Assembly: GCF_022867795.2 (NCBI RefSeq) | Contig: NZ_CP107006.1 | Coordinates: 806,001 to 870,000, forward strand | Source: Chitinophaga horti | GTDB lineage: Bacteria > Bacteroidota > Bacteroidia > Chitinophagales > Chitinophagaceae | Reading direction: 5' to 3' | Length of the DNA: 64,000 bases | Part shown: piece after piece, positions 55,614 through 61,359 of the stretch | Position numbering within the stretch: position 1 is the first letter of the stretch | Layout: each line of letters starts with the position of its first letter | The notes under the pieces: generated by a model | Told to the model about the DNA's origin: nothing | Seen by the model: the letters and a program-made list of their open reading frames with translations, nothing else | Databases searched by the model: none | Made by a program: the position numbers and the translations under genes

Positions 55614-56198
55614 TTGTCAGGGGAAACAACAAATACCGACCAGGATCTGATCGCCAGGATCGCTGCGGGGTCAGAGGAAGCTTTGGGCCAGCTGTTTGAG
55701 CGATACTGGGAGCAACTATATTTATCCGCTTACCGCAAGCTGGCCGACGATCAGTTAGCCCGCGAAGTGGTGAATGATGTATTTATGGATATCTGGCGCC
55801 TGCGTGGACAACGAGACATTTCCAACGTGCCCGCTTATCTGGGTAAAGCTGTTTACAACCGCGTTATCAACAAACTTGTCGGGAAGAAGGATGTTTACTT
55901 CTTCGATATCCTCGAAAATCATGGCGCCTCCCTGTACGAGGCGGACCAGAACCTGCTGCAGAAAGACCTGATCGCGATGATCGGCGCCTGGATAACCACC
56001 CTTCCGGAACGCCGCCGCGAGATATTCATCCGCCACTATTTCGAACACCTTACTACCGCCGAAATTGCCGAGAAGATGGGCATCTCCCAAAAAACGGTAC
56101 AAAATCAGCTGAGCGCCGCCGTGCAATATCTGCGCACGCATTACGGCCACCTGCTGCCTGCATTAATGCTAATGCAGTCATTCTTTCCCAGGAAATAA
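55614..56198 (+). CDS. ECF sigma-70 factor, FecI-like, TTG start
   Basis: 194 residues. The only start that keeps region 2 complete is the TTG at 55614: the ATG at 55599 is followed at once by a stop, and the next internal ATG comes after region 2 has begun. Region 2 is at about 18-88 (ALGQLFERYWEQLYLSAYRKL, AREVVNDVFMDIWRLRG, VPAYLGKAVYNRVINKLVG), region 4 at about 122-180 (LPERRREIFIRHYFEHLTTAE, MGISQKTVQNQLSAAVQYLR). The tail LLPALMLMQSFFPRK is hydrophobic. The FecR gene follows after 64 bases. It should drive the susC operon at 57712. Confidence 0.93.
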   Translation: MSGETTNTDQDLIARIAAGSEEALGQLFERYWEQLYLSAYRKLADDQLAREVVNDVFMDIWRLRGQRDISNVPAYLGKAVYNRVINKLVGKKDVYFFDILENHGASLYEADQNLLQKDLIAMIGAWITTLPERRREIFIRHYFEHLTTAEIAEKMGISQKTVQNQLSAAVQYLRTHYGHLLPALMLMQSFFPRK

Positions 56199-56262: not shown

Positions 56263-57423
56263 GTGATTAAACCCGAATCAGAAGATATTATTCATTTTTT
56301 CAGGATGCTGGAACGGTATACTGCCGGTACGGCCAGTCCTGCGGAGACGGAGTTCGTGGAGCGCTATATGCAGCTGCTCGAATACCGGTCGCCGGCCCCG
56401 CCCGACTTTGCATCGACGAAGGATGATATAGGTAAGGAAATCAAAAACCAACTGTTTGATGCAATAGCCCAGGATACTGTGCGCCCGGCCATTCACCGGG
56501 TTCACTTCCTGCGGCGTTACTGGTGGGCGGCCGCGGCGGCCGTGGTATTGCTGGCCGGCGGTGGTTACGCCCTGTTACGTCAGCAACCGGTGCCACAAAC
56601 GCAGGTAGCGGCTGTAGTGGACGTACAACCCGGCAAATCGGGTGCAATACTAACACTCGCCAATGGCGAACAGGTGCTGCTGGATAGTCTCGGTAACGGG
56701 CAGGTGGCGGTGCAGTCAGGCGCTACTGTGCATATACAGAATGGTGCGCTGCTTTATGACCAGCACGGCGGGGATGGTGCGGTGGCTTTCAATACCGTGT
56801 CTACACCGAAAGGCCGCCAGTTCCGGGTAATACTGCCGGATGGTACGAAGGTATGGCTGAACGCAGCCAGCAGTCTTACTTATCCCACGCACTTCGATGG
56901 CCGGGAGCGCCAGGTGACGGTAGCGGGGGAAGCTTATTTCGAAGTGGCGCAAATCGCGCAGCAGCCCTTCAAGGTAAAAGTAAATGATCGTACCGAAGTG
57001 CTGGTACTGGGTACGAGCTTTAACATCAATGCTTACTATAATGAAGCCGGCATATACACCACGTTGCTGAGTGGTGCGGTAAAAGTGACGAACGACGCCG
57101 CCGGTAAAGTGCTGCGGCCCGGCGAGCAGGCCGGTATATTGGCGGGAAGCCGCGATATAGCGGTAGCCCCGGTGAATACAGCGGAAGTGGTAGCGTGGAA
57201 GAACGGCAGCTTCGCCTTCGCGAATGCGGACATTCAAACGGTAATGCGGCAGCTGGAGCGTTGGTACGACATAGAAGTGAGGTACGAAGGAGCAATACCG
57301 GAGGGTACTTTCAGCGGGGAGATAGACCGTTCACTCACGCTTACGCAGGTGCTGAACGGTTTGGCGAAAACCCGCATCCGTTACCGGTTAGAGGGGGAGC
57401 ATCAATTGATAATTCAACCATAG
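56263..57423 (+). CDS. FecR-family anti-sigma factor
   Basis: 386 residues from GTG 56263. The cytoplasmic part (1-80) begins IKPESEDIIHFFRMLERYTAG; the membrane helix is at about 88-105 (WWAAAAAVVLLAGGGYALL). The FecR domain follows (about 185-290: GRQFRVILPDGTKVWLNAASS, TYPTHFDGRERQVTVAGEAYF, VLVLGTSFNINAYYNEAGIYT), then the C-terminal DUF4974 domain (about 315-386: FAFANADIQTVMRQLERWYDI, LTQVLNGLAKTRIRYRL). The extra segment 110-180 (QPGKSGAILTLANGEQVLLDS) is typical of the longer FecR group in Bacteroidota. It pairs with the sigma factor upstream and the STN-type SusC downstream. Confidence 0.94.
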   Translation: MIKPESEDIIHFFRMLERYTAGTASPAETEFVERYMQLLEYRSPAPPDFASTKDDIGKEIKNQLFDAIAQDTVRPAIHRVHFLRRYWWAAAAAVVLLAGGGYALLRQQPVPQTQVAAVVDVQPGKSGAILTLANGEQVLLDSLGNGQVAVQSGATVHIQNGALLYDQHGGDGAVAFNTVSTPKGRQFRVILPDGTKVWLNAASSLTYPTHFDGRERQVTVAGEAYFEVAQIAQQPFKVKVNDRTEVLVLGTSFNINAYYNEAGIYTTLLSGAVKVTNDAAGKVLRPGEQAGILAGSRDIAVAPVNTAEVVAWKNGSFAFANADIQTVMRQLERWYDIEVRYEGAIPEGTFSGEIDRSLTLTQVLNGLAKTRIRYRLEGEHQLIIQP

Positions 57424-57439
57424 TGGTCAATAAAAAAAA

Positions 57440-57499
57440 CCGGGTGCAAAGATTGGCGTCCTGTCCCGGTTCCGTTTTGTTTTTAAACAGGTGTCTTAA
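57440..57499 (+). repeat. SusC leader element, copy 1
   Basis: Stem CCGGG (57440-57444) / CCCGG (57465-57469), extended by an outer A-T pair, encloses the 18-nt loop GCAAAGATTGGCGTCCTG; GGTGTCTTAA follows at 57490-57499. It starts 16 bases after the fecR stop codon. The same parts recur at 57623-57685. Confidence 0.85.
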
Positions 57500-57622
57500 A
57501 AAAGCCTATTGTCAAACTTAAACAGCGTAAAAGTATGAAAAAATCAGTGGATTCCGTCCCGCCGGGACTTTAGCGAAGAACGAGTAATCAACCAGAATTA
57601 AACAGCCGCATACACTATTGAT

Positions 57623-57685
57623 CCGGGGGCAAAGATTGGCGTCCTGCCCTGGCTATAGCCGATGCTGCGCTGCAAGGTGTCTTAA
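57623..57685 (+). repeat. SusC leader element, copy 2
   Basis: Stem CCGGGG (57623-57628) / CCCTGG (57647-57652) with one G-T pair, the same 18-nt loop GCAAAGATTGGCGTCCTG, and GGTGTCTTAA at 57676-57685. The stem differs from copy 1 at two positions, yet both pair. It ends 26 bases before the first susC ATG. Confidence 0.85.
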
Positions 57686-57711
57686 CCGCATTGTTCACTT
57701 AAATTATCGGA

Positions 57712-60700
57712 ATGCAAATGAAGGATCATTGCATCACGCTCCGCCGTGTGTCCAAAGGAAGGGCAGGAGCATCAACCAAAATTGAAAGAGCTATGAAATT
57801 AGTATCCATCATGCTGATGGCTTTTGCTTTACAGCTTAGCGCCAGGTCGATGGCTCAAACGATCAATTACTCCGGTAAAAATGTTGCCGTACAACAGGTG
57901 TTTGCTGCTATCAAAGCACAAACGAGTTACAAGTTTTTTTATCGTAACGAAGACCTCACCGGCTTAAACCATGTCACGCTCGAATTGAAGCAGGCATCGC
58001 TCGAAGAAGCGTTGCGAAAGGTATTGAACAACCAGCCGCTCGACTATTCCATAGAAGGTAACACCATCTTCATCACCCGTCGCCCCGAGCAAGTGACAGT
58101 CGGCATTCCCTACAGCGGTGTGCAGGAGATGAGGGGAGACGTGAAAGGAGTGATCACCGATATTCATAACAACCGCCTGAGCGGCATTACCGTTGTGGCG
58201 AAGGAAGGTAAACAAATGACCGTATCCGGCGAGCATGGTCAGTTTTTGCTCCGCAATGTAAAACAGGGCGACTCGATCATTTTCAGCAGCATCAACTACG
58301 AAAGGATGGCTATTCCCGCCACGTTCCAGGAACATATGGTGGTACTGAACTACAAAGTAACAGCGCTTTCGGGAGTGAAAATCGTATACAGTACGGGTTA
58401 CCAGGAAGTGTCGCGCGAGCGGGCCACGGGCGCTTTTGCCCAGGCAGATATGAAAGTATTTCAGCAACGCGCCACCACGAACGATATCCTGTCGCGACTC
58501 GACGGGCAAATTGCCGGTCTCACGGTAATGCCTAATACTTTCAACCAGGACGTATTAAATCCCGGTGTACAAACCAATAAAGTGGTGATACGCGGTCTCG
58601 GCTCTGTTAACTCAACCAATGACCCGATATACGTGGTGAACGGCGTGATCGTTACCGACTTTAGCACGGTGAATCCGCAGGATATAGAAGATATTACAGT
58701 ATTGAAAGATGCGGCCGCTGCGGCCATCTATGGTGCCAGGGCCAGTAACGGGGTGATCGTGGTACGTACCCGCGACGGTCAGAAAAAGCAACGCCTGCAG
58801 GTGAACTATGCGGGCAACTATACGTTCAGCGGCAAGCCGCACCTGGACTATGTACCGTACATGAACAGCCGGCAGTTTATCGAAACTTCGCGTGAAATCT
58901 TCGCACCGGACGTTTATCCCGCCGAAACGTTTGCCTATTCCAACATGCTGCCCCATACAAGGGTGATGTACGACGAATACCTTGGCCTCATTTCTTCCGC
59001 CACCGCCGATCACCTGCTGGATAGTATGGCGAATATCAGCAACCGCGGGCAGATACGTGACATGTTGTACCGCAATGCGATGCTGACTAACCACACGGTT
59101 TCCGCTTCGGGTGGCACGGATAACTATTCTTTTTATGCCTCTCTCGGTTATACTGGTGTACAGTCACCCACGCCCGGTGAGCGCGATAACAGTTATAAGT
59201 TTAACGTGTCGCAGCAGTTCAATGTTGGTAAACGCGTCACTATAGGCTTAAACACAACGCTGATCAACAGGAATACCAGCAAAAGAGGCGGCCTCTCAGC
59301 CTCCTATAGTTTCCTGCCTTACCAGTTGTTCAAGGATGGCGCAGGCAACGACCTTAACTTCGCTTCGCTGATGCAGTGGAACGATTCGCTGCGCAACGAC
59401 TACCAGTCGAGAAGCCGTGTTAACCTCGATTATTACCCGTTAATTGACCAGCAATATAACGAGTCGAAAAGCAACGCCCTGTCTATGAACCTTACCGCGA
59501 ACGTAACGGCAAATATCTGGCGGGGATTGAGCTACCAGGGTGTTTTCGGATATATTAAGAATCCCGGCACACAGGAAACATATACCGACAACCGCTCCTA
59601 CATGCAGCGCATGCAACAGCTGAATTTTACCATTGCGCCCACTGAAAACGATGTTCCACAGTATCTGCTGCCTGCCACCGGCGGTATGTACAGCACCACC
59701 AGCTTTGAGCAAAGAAACTGGACGGTGCGCAATCAGCTGGTATATGATACGCGTGTTCGCCAGGGCAGAGATGCCTTGTCGCTGCAGGCTGGGCAGGAGG
59801 TATTAGAGAACTTCAGTTCCTCCACACAAACGACCTTACTTGGTTATGACAGGCAGCTGGGTTCTTATCCGCTGATAGACTATGCCACCTTAAGTCAGCC
59901 CAACTTCGGAACGGTGACCGGCTTTGCGTCATTGGGCGTACGGCCCTTTGATATCACTACGGTTTTATCCCGCTTCCGTTCTTACTTCGCGCTGGGTAAC
60001 TATACGTTCGATGATCGTTACAGCCTGGACCTTAGCTGGAGGCGCGATCAGAGTAACCTGTTCGGTGCCGATATTGCCGCGCAAAACAAACCAGCATACA
60101 GCATAGGTGGTAAGTGGCAGATCAACAAGGAGCAGTTTATGCAGCGCATAAGCTGGGTAAATGAACTCGGCCTGCGGTTGAGCTATGGCGTTACGGGTAA
60201 CTCACCGGCCGCTATTGCCGGCAATGGCACTTCGATGGATATCTTAAACGCCATGCCGCAATCGCAATCGGGCAGTATTGCCGGCGATGCCTTAACGGTA
60301 GAAACAATTGCCAACCCCAAACTTACCTGGGAAGCGACCCGCACCATCAACGCCGGTTTAAACTTCCGGATACTTCAGGGCAGATTGCATGGCGTGTTCA
60401 ACTATTATCAACGTAAAACAGAAGGCCTGCTCGCAACCCTGCGCTTAAATCCTTTCTCCGGCTTTGCCGTAACGATGGGTAACCTGGGTGATATGGAGAA
60501 TAAAGGTATCGACTTAGAACTGCACGCTCAGAACATCATTGCCGGCGACTTCCGCTGGTCTACCGATTTGATTATCGGCCATAACCGGAATAAGTTATTA
60601 TCGCTGGGCGTTCCCTCCGCATCTTCTTACTCCAATACGCCGATGGGCAGGTTGTTCTCCAACCACATCGTCGGTTATTCCGCCCAAACCCTGTTCTCTT

Positions 60701-61359
60701 ACCGTTATGCAGGGCTCGACAATATGGGCGATCCGCTGATTTACCTGGCAGACAAATCCACTACAAAGGCACCTAATATCGCTACGGTGAAGGATATGGT
60801 GTACAGTGGCACGACGCAGCCCGTGGTAAATGGCGGCTTCCGCAATACGTTCGACTACAAAGGCTGGAGCCTGGGCGTGAACATGGTATACAGCTTCGGG
60901 CATGTGATGCGGGCAGACGTAAACAACAGTTATTCAGGCCAGCTGGCGCAGACGGGGATGTATGGCGGCATCAGTGGTAACAACCTTTCTACCTACTTCC
61001 TCAACCGCTGGAAACAGCCGGGTGACGAGGCAAAGACCGACATTCCTTCTTATGTAGCAGACATGTACACCGATGCTACACGTCGCCACACGAACTATTA
61101 TGTATATGCTGACAGAAATGTGCTCGATGCTTCTTATGTCAAAGTGCGGGACATCACCTTGTCTTATGACCTGCAGCCCGCGGCCCTGCGGCTGCTGCAC
61201 GTTAAACAGGTGAACGTGTTTGTACAGGCCGGCAACTTCATGGTATGGAAGGCCAATGACCGCGATATTGATCCGGAGTTTATCAGTCCGCGCGGCGGAG
61301 GCAGGGTTACACCTGCGGCCCGGCATACCTACACCGCTGGCTTAAATGTTACACTCTAA
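57712..61359 (+). CDS. SusC/RagA-family transporter with STN signalling domain
   Basis: 1215 residues; starts at 57712 or at the second ATG 57718, which matches the decayed copy upstream. A long N-region leads to the signal peptide at about 27-50 (MKLVSIMLMAFALQLSARSMA). STN domain about 52-125 (INYSGKNVAVQQVFAAIKAQT, YKFFYRNEDLTGL, LRKVLNNQPLDYSIEGNTIFI), carboxypeptidase-like domain about 143-225 (DVKGVITDIHNNRLSGITVVA), plug (NDILSRLDGQIAGLTVMPNTF, VIRGLGSVNSTNDPIYVVNG, ITVLKDAAAAAIYGARASNG) and barrel with NRWKQPGDEAKTDIPS, ending GLNVTL. The STN domain should signal to the FecR encoded upstream. Substrate unknown. Confidence 0.95.
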   Translation: MQMKDHCITLRRVSKGRAGASTKIERAMKLVSIMLMAFALQLSARSMAQTINYSGKNVAVQQVFAAIKAQTSYKFFYRNEDLTGLNHVTLELKQASLEEALRKVLNNQPLDYSIEGNTIFITRRPEQVTVGIPYSGVQEMRGDVKGVITDIHNNRLSGITVVAKEGKQMTVSGEHGQFLLRNVKQGDSIIFSSINYERMAIPATFQEHMVVLNYKVTALSGVKIVYSTGYQEVSRERATGAFAQADMKVFQQRATTNDILSRLDGQIAGLTVMPNTFNQDVLNPGVQTNKVVIRGLGSVNSTNDPIYVVNGVIVTDFSTVNPQDIEDITVLKDAAAAAIYGARASNGVIVVRTRDGQKKQRLQVNYAGNYTFSGKPHLDYVPYMNSRQFIETSREIFAPDVYPAETFAYSNMLPHTRVMYDEYLGLISSATADHLLDSMANISNRGQIRDMLYRNAMLTNHTVSASGGTDNYSFYASLGYTGVQSPTPGERDNSYKFNVSQQFNVGKRVTIGLNTTLINRNTSKRGGLSASYSFLPYQLFKDGAGNDLNFASLMQWNDSLRNDYQSRSRVNLDYYPLIDQQYNESKSNALSMNLTANVTANIWRGLSYQGVFGYIKNPGTQETYTDNRSYMQRMQQLNFTIAPTENDVPQYLLPATGGMYSTTSFEQRNWTVRNQLVYDTRVRQGRDALSLQAGQEVLENFSSSTQTTLLGYDRQLGSYPLIDYATLSQPNFGTVTGFASLGVRPFDITTVLSRFRSYFALGNYTFDDRYSLDLSWRRDQSNLFGADIAAQNKPAYSIGGKWQINKEQFMQRISWVNELGLRLSYGVTGNSPAAIAGNGTSMDILNAMPQSQSGSIAGDALTVETIANPKLTWEATRTINAGLNFRILQGRLHGVFNYYQRKTEGLLATLRLNPFSGFAVTMGNLGDMENKGIDLELHAQNIIAGDFRWSTDLIIGHNRNKLLSLGVPSASSYSNTPMGRLFSNHIVGYSAQTLFSYRYAGLDNMGDPLIYLADKSTTKAPNIATVKDMVYSGTTQPVVNGGFRNTFDYKGWSLGVNMVYSFGHVMRADVNNSYSGQLAQTGMYGGISGNNLSTYFLNRWKQPGDEAKTDIPSYVADMYTDATRRHTNYYVYADRNVLDASYVKVRDITLSYDLQPAALRLLHVKQVNVFVQAGNFMVWKANDRDIDPEFISPRGGGRVTPAARHTYTAGLNVTL

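Follow-up and report, generated by a model that had tools for sequence, protein, structure and literature searches.

The DNA between a fecR-type anti-sigma factor gene and the susC gene that follows it in the window (i.e., the whole 64,000-nucleotide stretch of DNA analyzed) is probably a tandemly duplicated gene for a cis-antisense small RNA of the DonS kind, directed against the susC leader. The hairpin before susC would be best read on the minus strand, namely, as the terminator of a small antisense RNA. An earlier sequence-only reading had recognized the duplicated element and had assigned it to the sense leader of susC; the observation is confirmed, and the interpretation is moved to the opposite strand.

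The Duplicated Element before susC

The locus has the order ECF sigma factor gene, fecR, susC with an STN domain, and susD (Table 1). The two units of about 183 bp that had been proposed in the gap between the end of fecR (57423) and the susC start codon (57712) are real. The 30-mers at 57440-57469 and 57623-57652 share 90% identity at a distance of 183 bp; the 18-mer GCAAAGATTGGCGTCCTG is identical in both units (57446-57463 and 57629-57646), as is GGTGTCTTAA, which follows the 18-mer after 26 bases in unit 1 and 29 bases in unit 2, precisely as had been claimed. With up to three mismatches allowed, the 18-mer occurs just twice in the window versus 0.07 copies expected from shuffled sequences, and its identity in the two units is beyond chance. 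GGTGTC, which lies within the GGTGTCTTAA element, is retained in both units of four tandem-copy genomes. The described changes of the stem, from G-C to G-T and from T/T to G-C, are likewise present; the G-T pairs on the sense strand only, the opposite strand presenting C against A, and the stem of unit 2 is calculated at -12.4 kcal/mol in sense versus -8.9 kcal/mol in antisense orientation. The hairpin of unit 1, whose tip is named here by its sequence AAGATTGGCGTCC, is T-rich on the plus strand as well and would therefore possibly be a bidirectional terminator.

Unit 1 ends with GTAAAAGTATG followed by a 12-codon open reading frame, and unit 2 ends with the susC ATG. Since the ATG and the reading frame of unit 1 match the position of the susC start, the duplication took in the region up to that start. 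At the decayed susC-start site, ATGTAA or ATGAAAATTTAG is found in the other genomes with two copies. A leader peptide encoded by unit 1 was considered and rejected, the reading frame being conserved neither in length nor in sequence.

Two further observations concern the genes of the window. Between its outer ATG at 57712 and an inner ATG at 57793, which precedes the signal peptide, susC carries an in-frame extension of 27 codons (57712-57795), and the same pattern of outer and inner ATG is seen in many susC paralogues of the genome. A second fecR gene is located at about 38182 (L166), followed by a receptor-like gene; the gap between them contains repeated ATCAACCAAA and no A-run hairpin.

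Table 1: Features of the locus in window coordinates, with the basis of each assignment.
Feature	Position	Strand	Basis or remark
ECF sigma factor gene	55614..56198	+	Pfam Sigma70_r4_2, Sigma70_ECF; TTG start as listed, putative
fecR-type anti-sigma factor gene	56263..57423	+	Pfam FecR, FecR_C
Eight-A run on the plus strand, U8 tail of the predicted antisense RNA terminator, unit 1	57432..57439	-	Sequence; A-run bias of such hairpins
Predicted antisense RNA of unit 1, 77-92 nt	57432..57523	-	From box and terminator positions: start near 57508 or 57523, end near 57432
Unit 1 hairpin: AACCGGG 57438-57444, tip with 18-mer 57446-57463, CCCGGTT 57465-57471	57438..57471	-	Predicted intrinsic terminator
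Conserved 18-mer GCAAAGATTGGCGTCCTG, copy 1	57446..57463		Sequence, window count, profile
GGTGTCTTAA, copy 1	57490..57499		Sequence
Exact TAAGTTTG, candidate -7 promoter box, unit 1	57513..57520	-	Sequence
TACTTTTA, one base off TAnnTTTG, unit 1	57528..57535	-	Site of the exact box in single-copy relatives
Decayed susC-start copy: ATG and 12 codons, then TAG	57535..57573	+	Position homologous to susC start 57712
Unit 2 hairpin: CCGGGG 57623-57628, 18-mer 57629-57646, CCCTGG 57647-57652	57623..57652	+	No U-run on the minus strand
GGTGTCTTAA, copy 2	57676..57685		Sequence
susC, TonB-dependent receptor with STN domain	57712..61359	+	ATG 57712

Recurrence and Strand Polarity of the Hairpins

The anatomy of the element, its strand polarity, its recurrence, and the conservation of its tip are apparent from the sequences compared. 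Copies after other fecR genes, which the sequence-only reading had set as a test, were found before other susC genes. Of the 79 genomes of the genus, 21 contain the exact 15-mer AAAGATTGGCGTCCT; with one exception, it forms part of a hairpin of the window's kind in these genomes, and those loci that were compared lie between fecR and susC. When genome contigs were scanned with the 15-mer, the matches listed were mostly due to chance and included a relative carrying it, an uncultured Chitinophaga (L109). A profile of 23 distinct hairpins (R1), built on sequence without base pairs, reaches 34 of the 79 genomes, with strong matches in about 30. It also reaches three genomes from other genera of the family, each of which has the hairpin between fecR and susC. 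Weaker matches in the same genomes mostly represent a second stem type, CCTGGTG...CACCAGG around AAGATTGGCGTC; the tip thus persists through replacement of the stem, and some genomes have two to four loci in which unrelated stems bear one and the same tip. The ten fecR genes nearest to that of the window (53-68% protein identity) are all accompanied by a hairpin if the loop is disregarded. Three related genomes (G015, G005, and G009) share the tandem pair at this locus, the two copies being 227, 241, and 298 bp apart, respectively, versus 183 bp in the window, and the remaining relatives looked at have a single copy. The stem of unit 2 in G015 is GGGGA/TCCCC, with CAGT/ACTG past a bulge.

RNAalifold returned no pair for R1, since one-base indels in the loop shift the arms, and pairing was tested by arm swaps instead. 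On average, arms from the same genome pair better than arms of different genomes, which bears out the claim that the stems vary and still pair; unit 2 of the window is the outlier, its antisense pairing being clearly weaker than its sense pairing. The view that the element is a selected nucleic acid tied to susC genes under sigma/anti-sigma control is supported.

The strand was judged from the sequences following the 67 FecR loci of the genome (L162-L228), the polarity counts being made on 55 fecR-susC gaps. Many of the gaps contain a hairpin of 9-12 bp roughly 50-110 nt before susC, and three independent signs assign these hairpins to the minus strand. An A-run (at least six of eight bases) precedes the hairpin in 29 of the 55 gaps, and a T-run follows it in one; read on the minus strand, an A-run before the hairpin is a hairpin followed by a U-run. 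Imperfect stem pairs show the same preference. They are A-C in 29 instances versus G-T in 5, and in the GC core of the stems A-C in 24 versus G-T in 4 (p 0.0002), compared with 5 A-C versus 8 G-T in 18 ordinary sense terminators taken as control. Since an A-C mismatch turns into a G-U pair when the opposite strand is read, this wobble bias places the stem on the minus strand. Moreover, CAAANNTATG, i.e., the TAnnTTTG box on the minus strand, is located at exactly -7 of the susC ATG in 17 of 57 cases and near that position in none of 131 control starts; CAAANNTA corresponds, in reverse complement, to TAnnTTTG, the -7 box of Bacteroidota. On the minus strand, this box, a transcript body, and the terminator would together make up a small antisense RNA gene on the susC leader. 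Since U-runs, wobble bias, and the box near the susC ATG all belong to the minus strand, the earlier main reading of the element as a sense leader RNA is not supported in its original form.

In five genomes, covering three other genera of the family and the class, the 22 gaps include 11 A-runs, no T-run, and eight TAnnTTTG boxes at exactly -7, as well as 12 A-C versus 4 G-T pairs, a ratio that is not significant alone. The layout is clear in this family and class sample; in a phylum-wide check, it was mostly not seen in the best FecR_C matches outside the class. Counted against the antisense reading are the -33 element, none of which was recognized with the minus-strand boxes at susC starts, and YUNR, which occurs in 19 of 35 sense loops of the genome versus 8.5 expected, the loops being related by descent and the loop windows picked by hand. 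The YUNR enrichment hints that a sense hairpin may exist in RNA.

Other motifs were noted in the gaps. In the L162-L228 set, TCAACCAAA or parts of it occur in 24-34 of 48 fecR-susC gaps versus 3-8 expected, in two zones, of which one lies about 22 nt upstream of the susC ATG and the other, preceding the hairpin, about 115 nt upstream; in the window, the motif is found near 57590 and 57773, and it also stands before the inner susC ATG. An inverted repeat around the susC ATG, GTTACAAAAGT-ATG...-ACTTTTCGTAAC, is seen at L175, L180, L183, and L193. Downstream of the fecR gene of L208 (G000:C1:1533174-1535452), there is an array of imperfect repeats of roughly 50 bp (CATCATTGTTTGCCCCTGTGGCCTCGTGC...).

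Antisense Model, Conserved Tip, and Alternative Readings

In the ancestral single-copy form, the antisense RNA would be transcribed from a minus-strand promoter of the housekeeping type, with a TAnnTTTG box that overlaps the region of the susC start (CAAANNTATG). It would run back through the leader for about 80-100 nt and end at the hairpin and U-run just downstream of fecR. Its pairing with the susC leader would hold susC down until the gene is driven by the ECF sigma factor. After the duplication, which may have separated source and target, unit 1 with its terminator and candidate promoter would make the antisense RNA, and unit 2, situated directly before susC, would be its likely target. 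Transcription, this division of labor, and repression by pairing are what we infer. Unit 2 has lost the U-run and the promoter box and has retained the tip and a stem that pairs in sense orientation; correspondingly, the minus strand at the susC start 57712 carries no TAnnTTTG box. The predicted RNA of unit 1 would pair with the leader of unit 2 at -83 kcal/mol versus -35 kcal/mol for shuffles. If the two units had to remain complementary, the identity of the 18-mer and of GGTGTCTTAA amid the drift of the remaining sequence would be accounted for. Among the single-copy relatives checked, all those in which the loop core AGATTGGCGTC is preserved exactly have an exact box at the susC ATG. The weak point of the source and target model is the imperfect box of unit 1, which at the homologous place reads TAnnTTTA in all four tandem-copy genomes, a finding counted against the model. 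Near that site, an exact box is present in the window and in G009 only; in the window, the exact TAAGTTTG lies 15 nt nearer to the hairpin than TACTTTTA.

Also counted against the model is the hairpin tip, which demands more than antisense pairing. The strands of an ordinary antisense pair are complementary by construction, and sameness of a loop between species is thus not forced. Nevertheless, in one clade of these RNAs the same 11-12 tip letters are nearly unchanged across genera, whereas in other FecR clades the loops vary among close relatives (CGGCAAA, CTGCAAA, CTGCGAA). Mapped on the FecR tree, a fast tree with many weak forks, the loop label changes 5 times versus 32 times with shuffled labels. 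Candidate causes of the frozen tip are recognition of the loop by a protein, cross-talk between loci with the tip in common, or the sense helix GAU-UGGC-GUC. For the second of these, it is conceivable, if doubtful, that antisense RNAs from one locus kiss the leaders of sister susC genes in the same cell, giving a trans-acting hierarchy of transporters; in the window, the duplication would have separated the source (unit 1) from the target (unit 2). Copies of GATTGGCGTC in the own genome amount to about the chance number, and among the other fecR loci it occurs at L191 only. There (G000:C1:2877020-2877029, minus strand), next to a FecR outside the loop clade, the tip GATTGGCGTC sits in the fully paired stem CCGGAAGTGATTGGCGTCACTTCCGG; this likeness is due to convergence, exchange, or chance.

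The third candidate leads back to the sense strand. That the element acts in the susC mRNA, as a leader stem whose conserved apical helix GAU-UGGC-GUC with an AA/C internal loop is bound by a protein or by another RNA, would agree with a tip that is near-invariant across genera on differing stems, with the identical apical helix predicted in all seven variants folded in sense orientation, with the sense pairing that unit 2 keeps through G-U, and with the YUNR enrichment described above. The wobble bias and the U-runs place the family as a whole on the minus strand, however, and make such a leader unlikely, although it may coexist with the antisense RNA. Still less probable is that the tip is an ECF sigma factor promoter (-35 AAACC, -10 CGTC) that happens to sit in a terminator hairpin. 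A promoter of this type must exist somewhere before susC, unit 1 contains AAC N16 CGTC, which is similar to ECF promoters in general, and the loop class tracks the FecR clade; but the spacer varies from 14 to 16 nt across L311, L312, L329, and the window, unit 2 lacks AAC in both the window and G015, and the invariant part includes AAGATTG, for which a -35/-10 pair has no need. AAC N15-17 CGT or CGTC was not enriched in the other 48 gaps either, and with a variable spacer and no general AAC-N-CGT signal, an ECF promoter in the loop is not supported. As for a plain, possibly bidirectional terminator behind fecR, without any regulatory RNA and with a tip kept by descent only, the T-rich plus strand after the hairpin in this loop clade would fit. 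The generic hairpins of the genome, however, have no T-run after them, the variation of loops in other close relatives means that the invariance is not mere descent, and the -7 box at the susC start would be left unexplained; this option is regarded as highly improbable.

Relation to Known Systems

On sequence grounds, the antisense layout known from Bacteroides is predicted here to occur also in Chitinophaga-like bacteria and in the class to which they belong. The genus supplies dozens of natural variants per genome, this genome alone having 67 fecR loci, and it offers a frozen-loop clade beside free-loop clades as well as four genomes in which source and target are seemingly apart. With this material, the mechanism becomes directly testable, whether it consists in kissing of the loops, in transcriptional interference, or in a protein that binds the loop.

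The element resembles Rfam families in having a conserved loop on a changing, still-pairing stem before a gene; in Rfam release 15, no family was matched, the sole match being at chance level and far below the gathering score. A literature search for such antisense RNAs in Chitinophaga found no paper. CopA/CopT and hok/sok are antisense/target RNA pairs with YUNR U-turn loops. The present case is similar to these in its complementary hairpins and in the enrichment of YUNR in the loops of one strand, and differs in that chromosomal transporter genes are concerned.

DonS and other cis-antisense RNAs of Bacteroides polysaccharide utilization loci were reportedly the subject of Cao et al. 2016, J Bacteriol 198:2410. 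According to two articles, DonS of Bacteroides fragilis represents antisense RNAs of 78-128 nt that are divergent to susC homologues and repress them, and DonS-like RNAs have been seen in B. thetaiotaomicron, too (PMC7366714, PMC11697453); how RNAs of this type repress their transporter is stated as unknown in the latter (PMC11697453). Like DonS, the predicted RNA of the window would be antisense to a susC homologue at its 5' end, between the anti-sigma gene and susC, in an ECF sigma/anti-sigma neighborhood. It would also have an intrinsic terminator at its 3' end (the unit 1 hairpin followed by U8 on the minus strand). It may be of similar size (77-92 nt, as predicted from signal positions, versus 78-128 nt) and may have a promoter of the housekeeping type, the TAnnTTTG box being exact in single-copy relatives and, in the window, one base off at that place in unit 1, exact 15 nt nearer, and absent in unit 2. 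Unlike DonS, it belongs to a Chitinophaga-like genus and not to Bacteroides, the box is found at exactly -7 of the susC ATG, the terminator loop is near-invariant in one clade, and the unit is present twice, with source and target apparently divided between the copies. Membership in the DonS type is argued from this anatomy.
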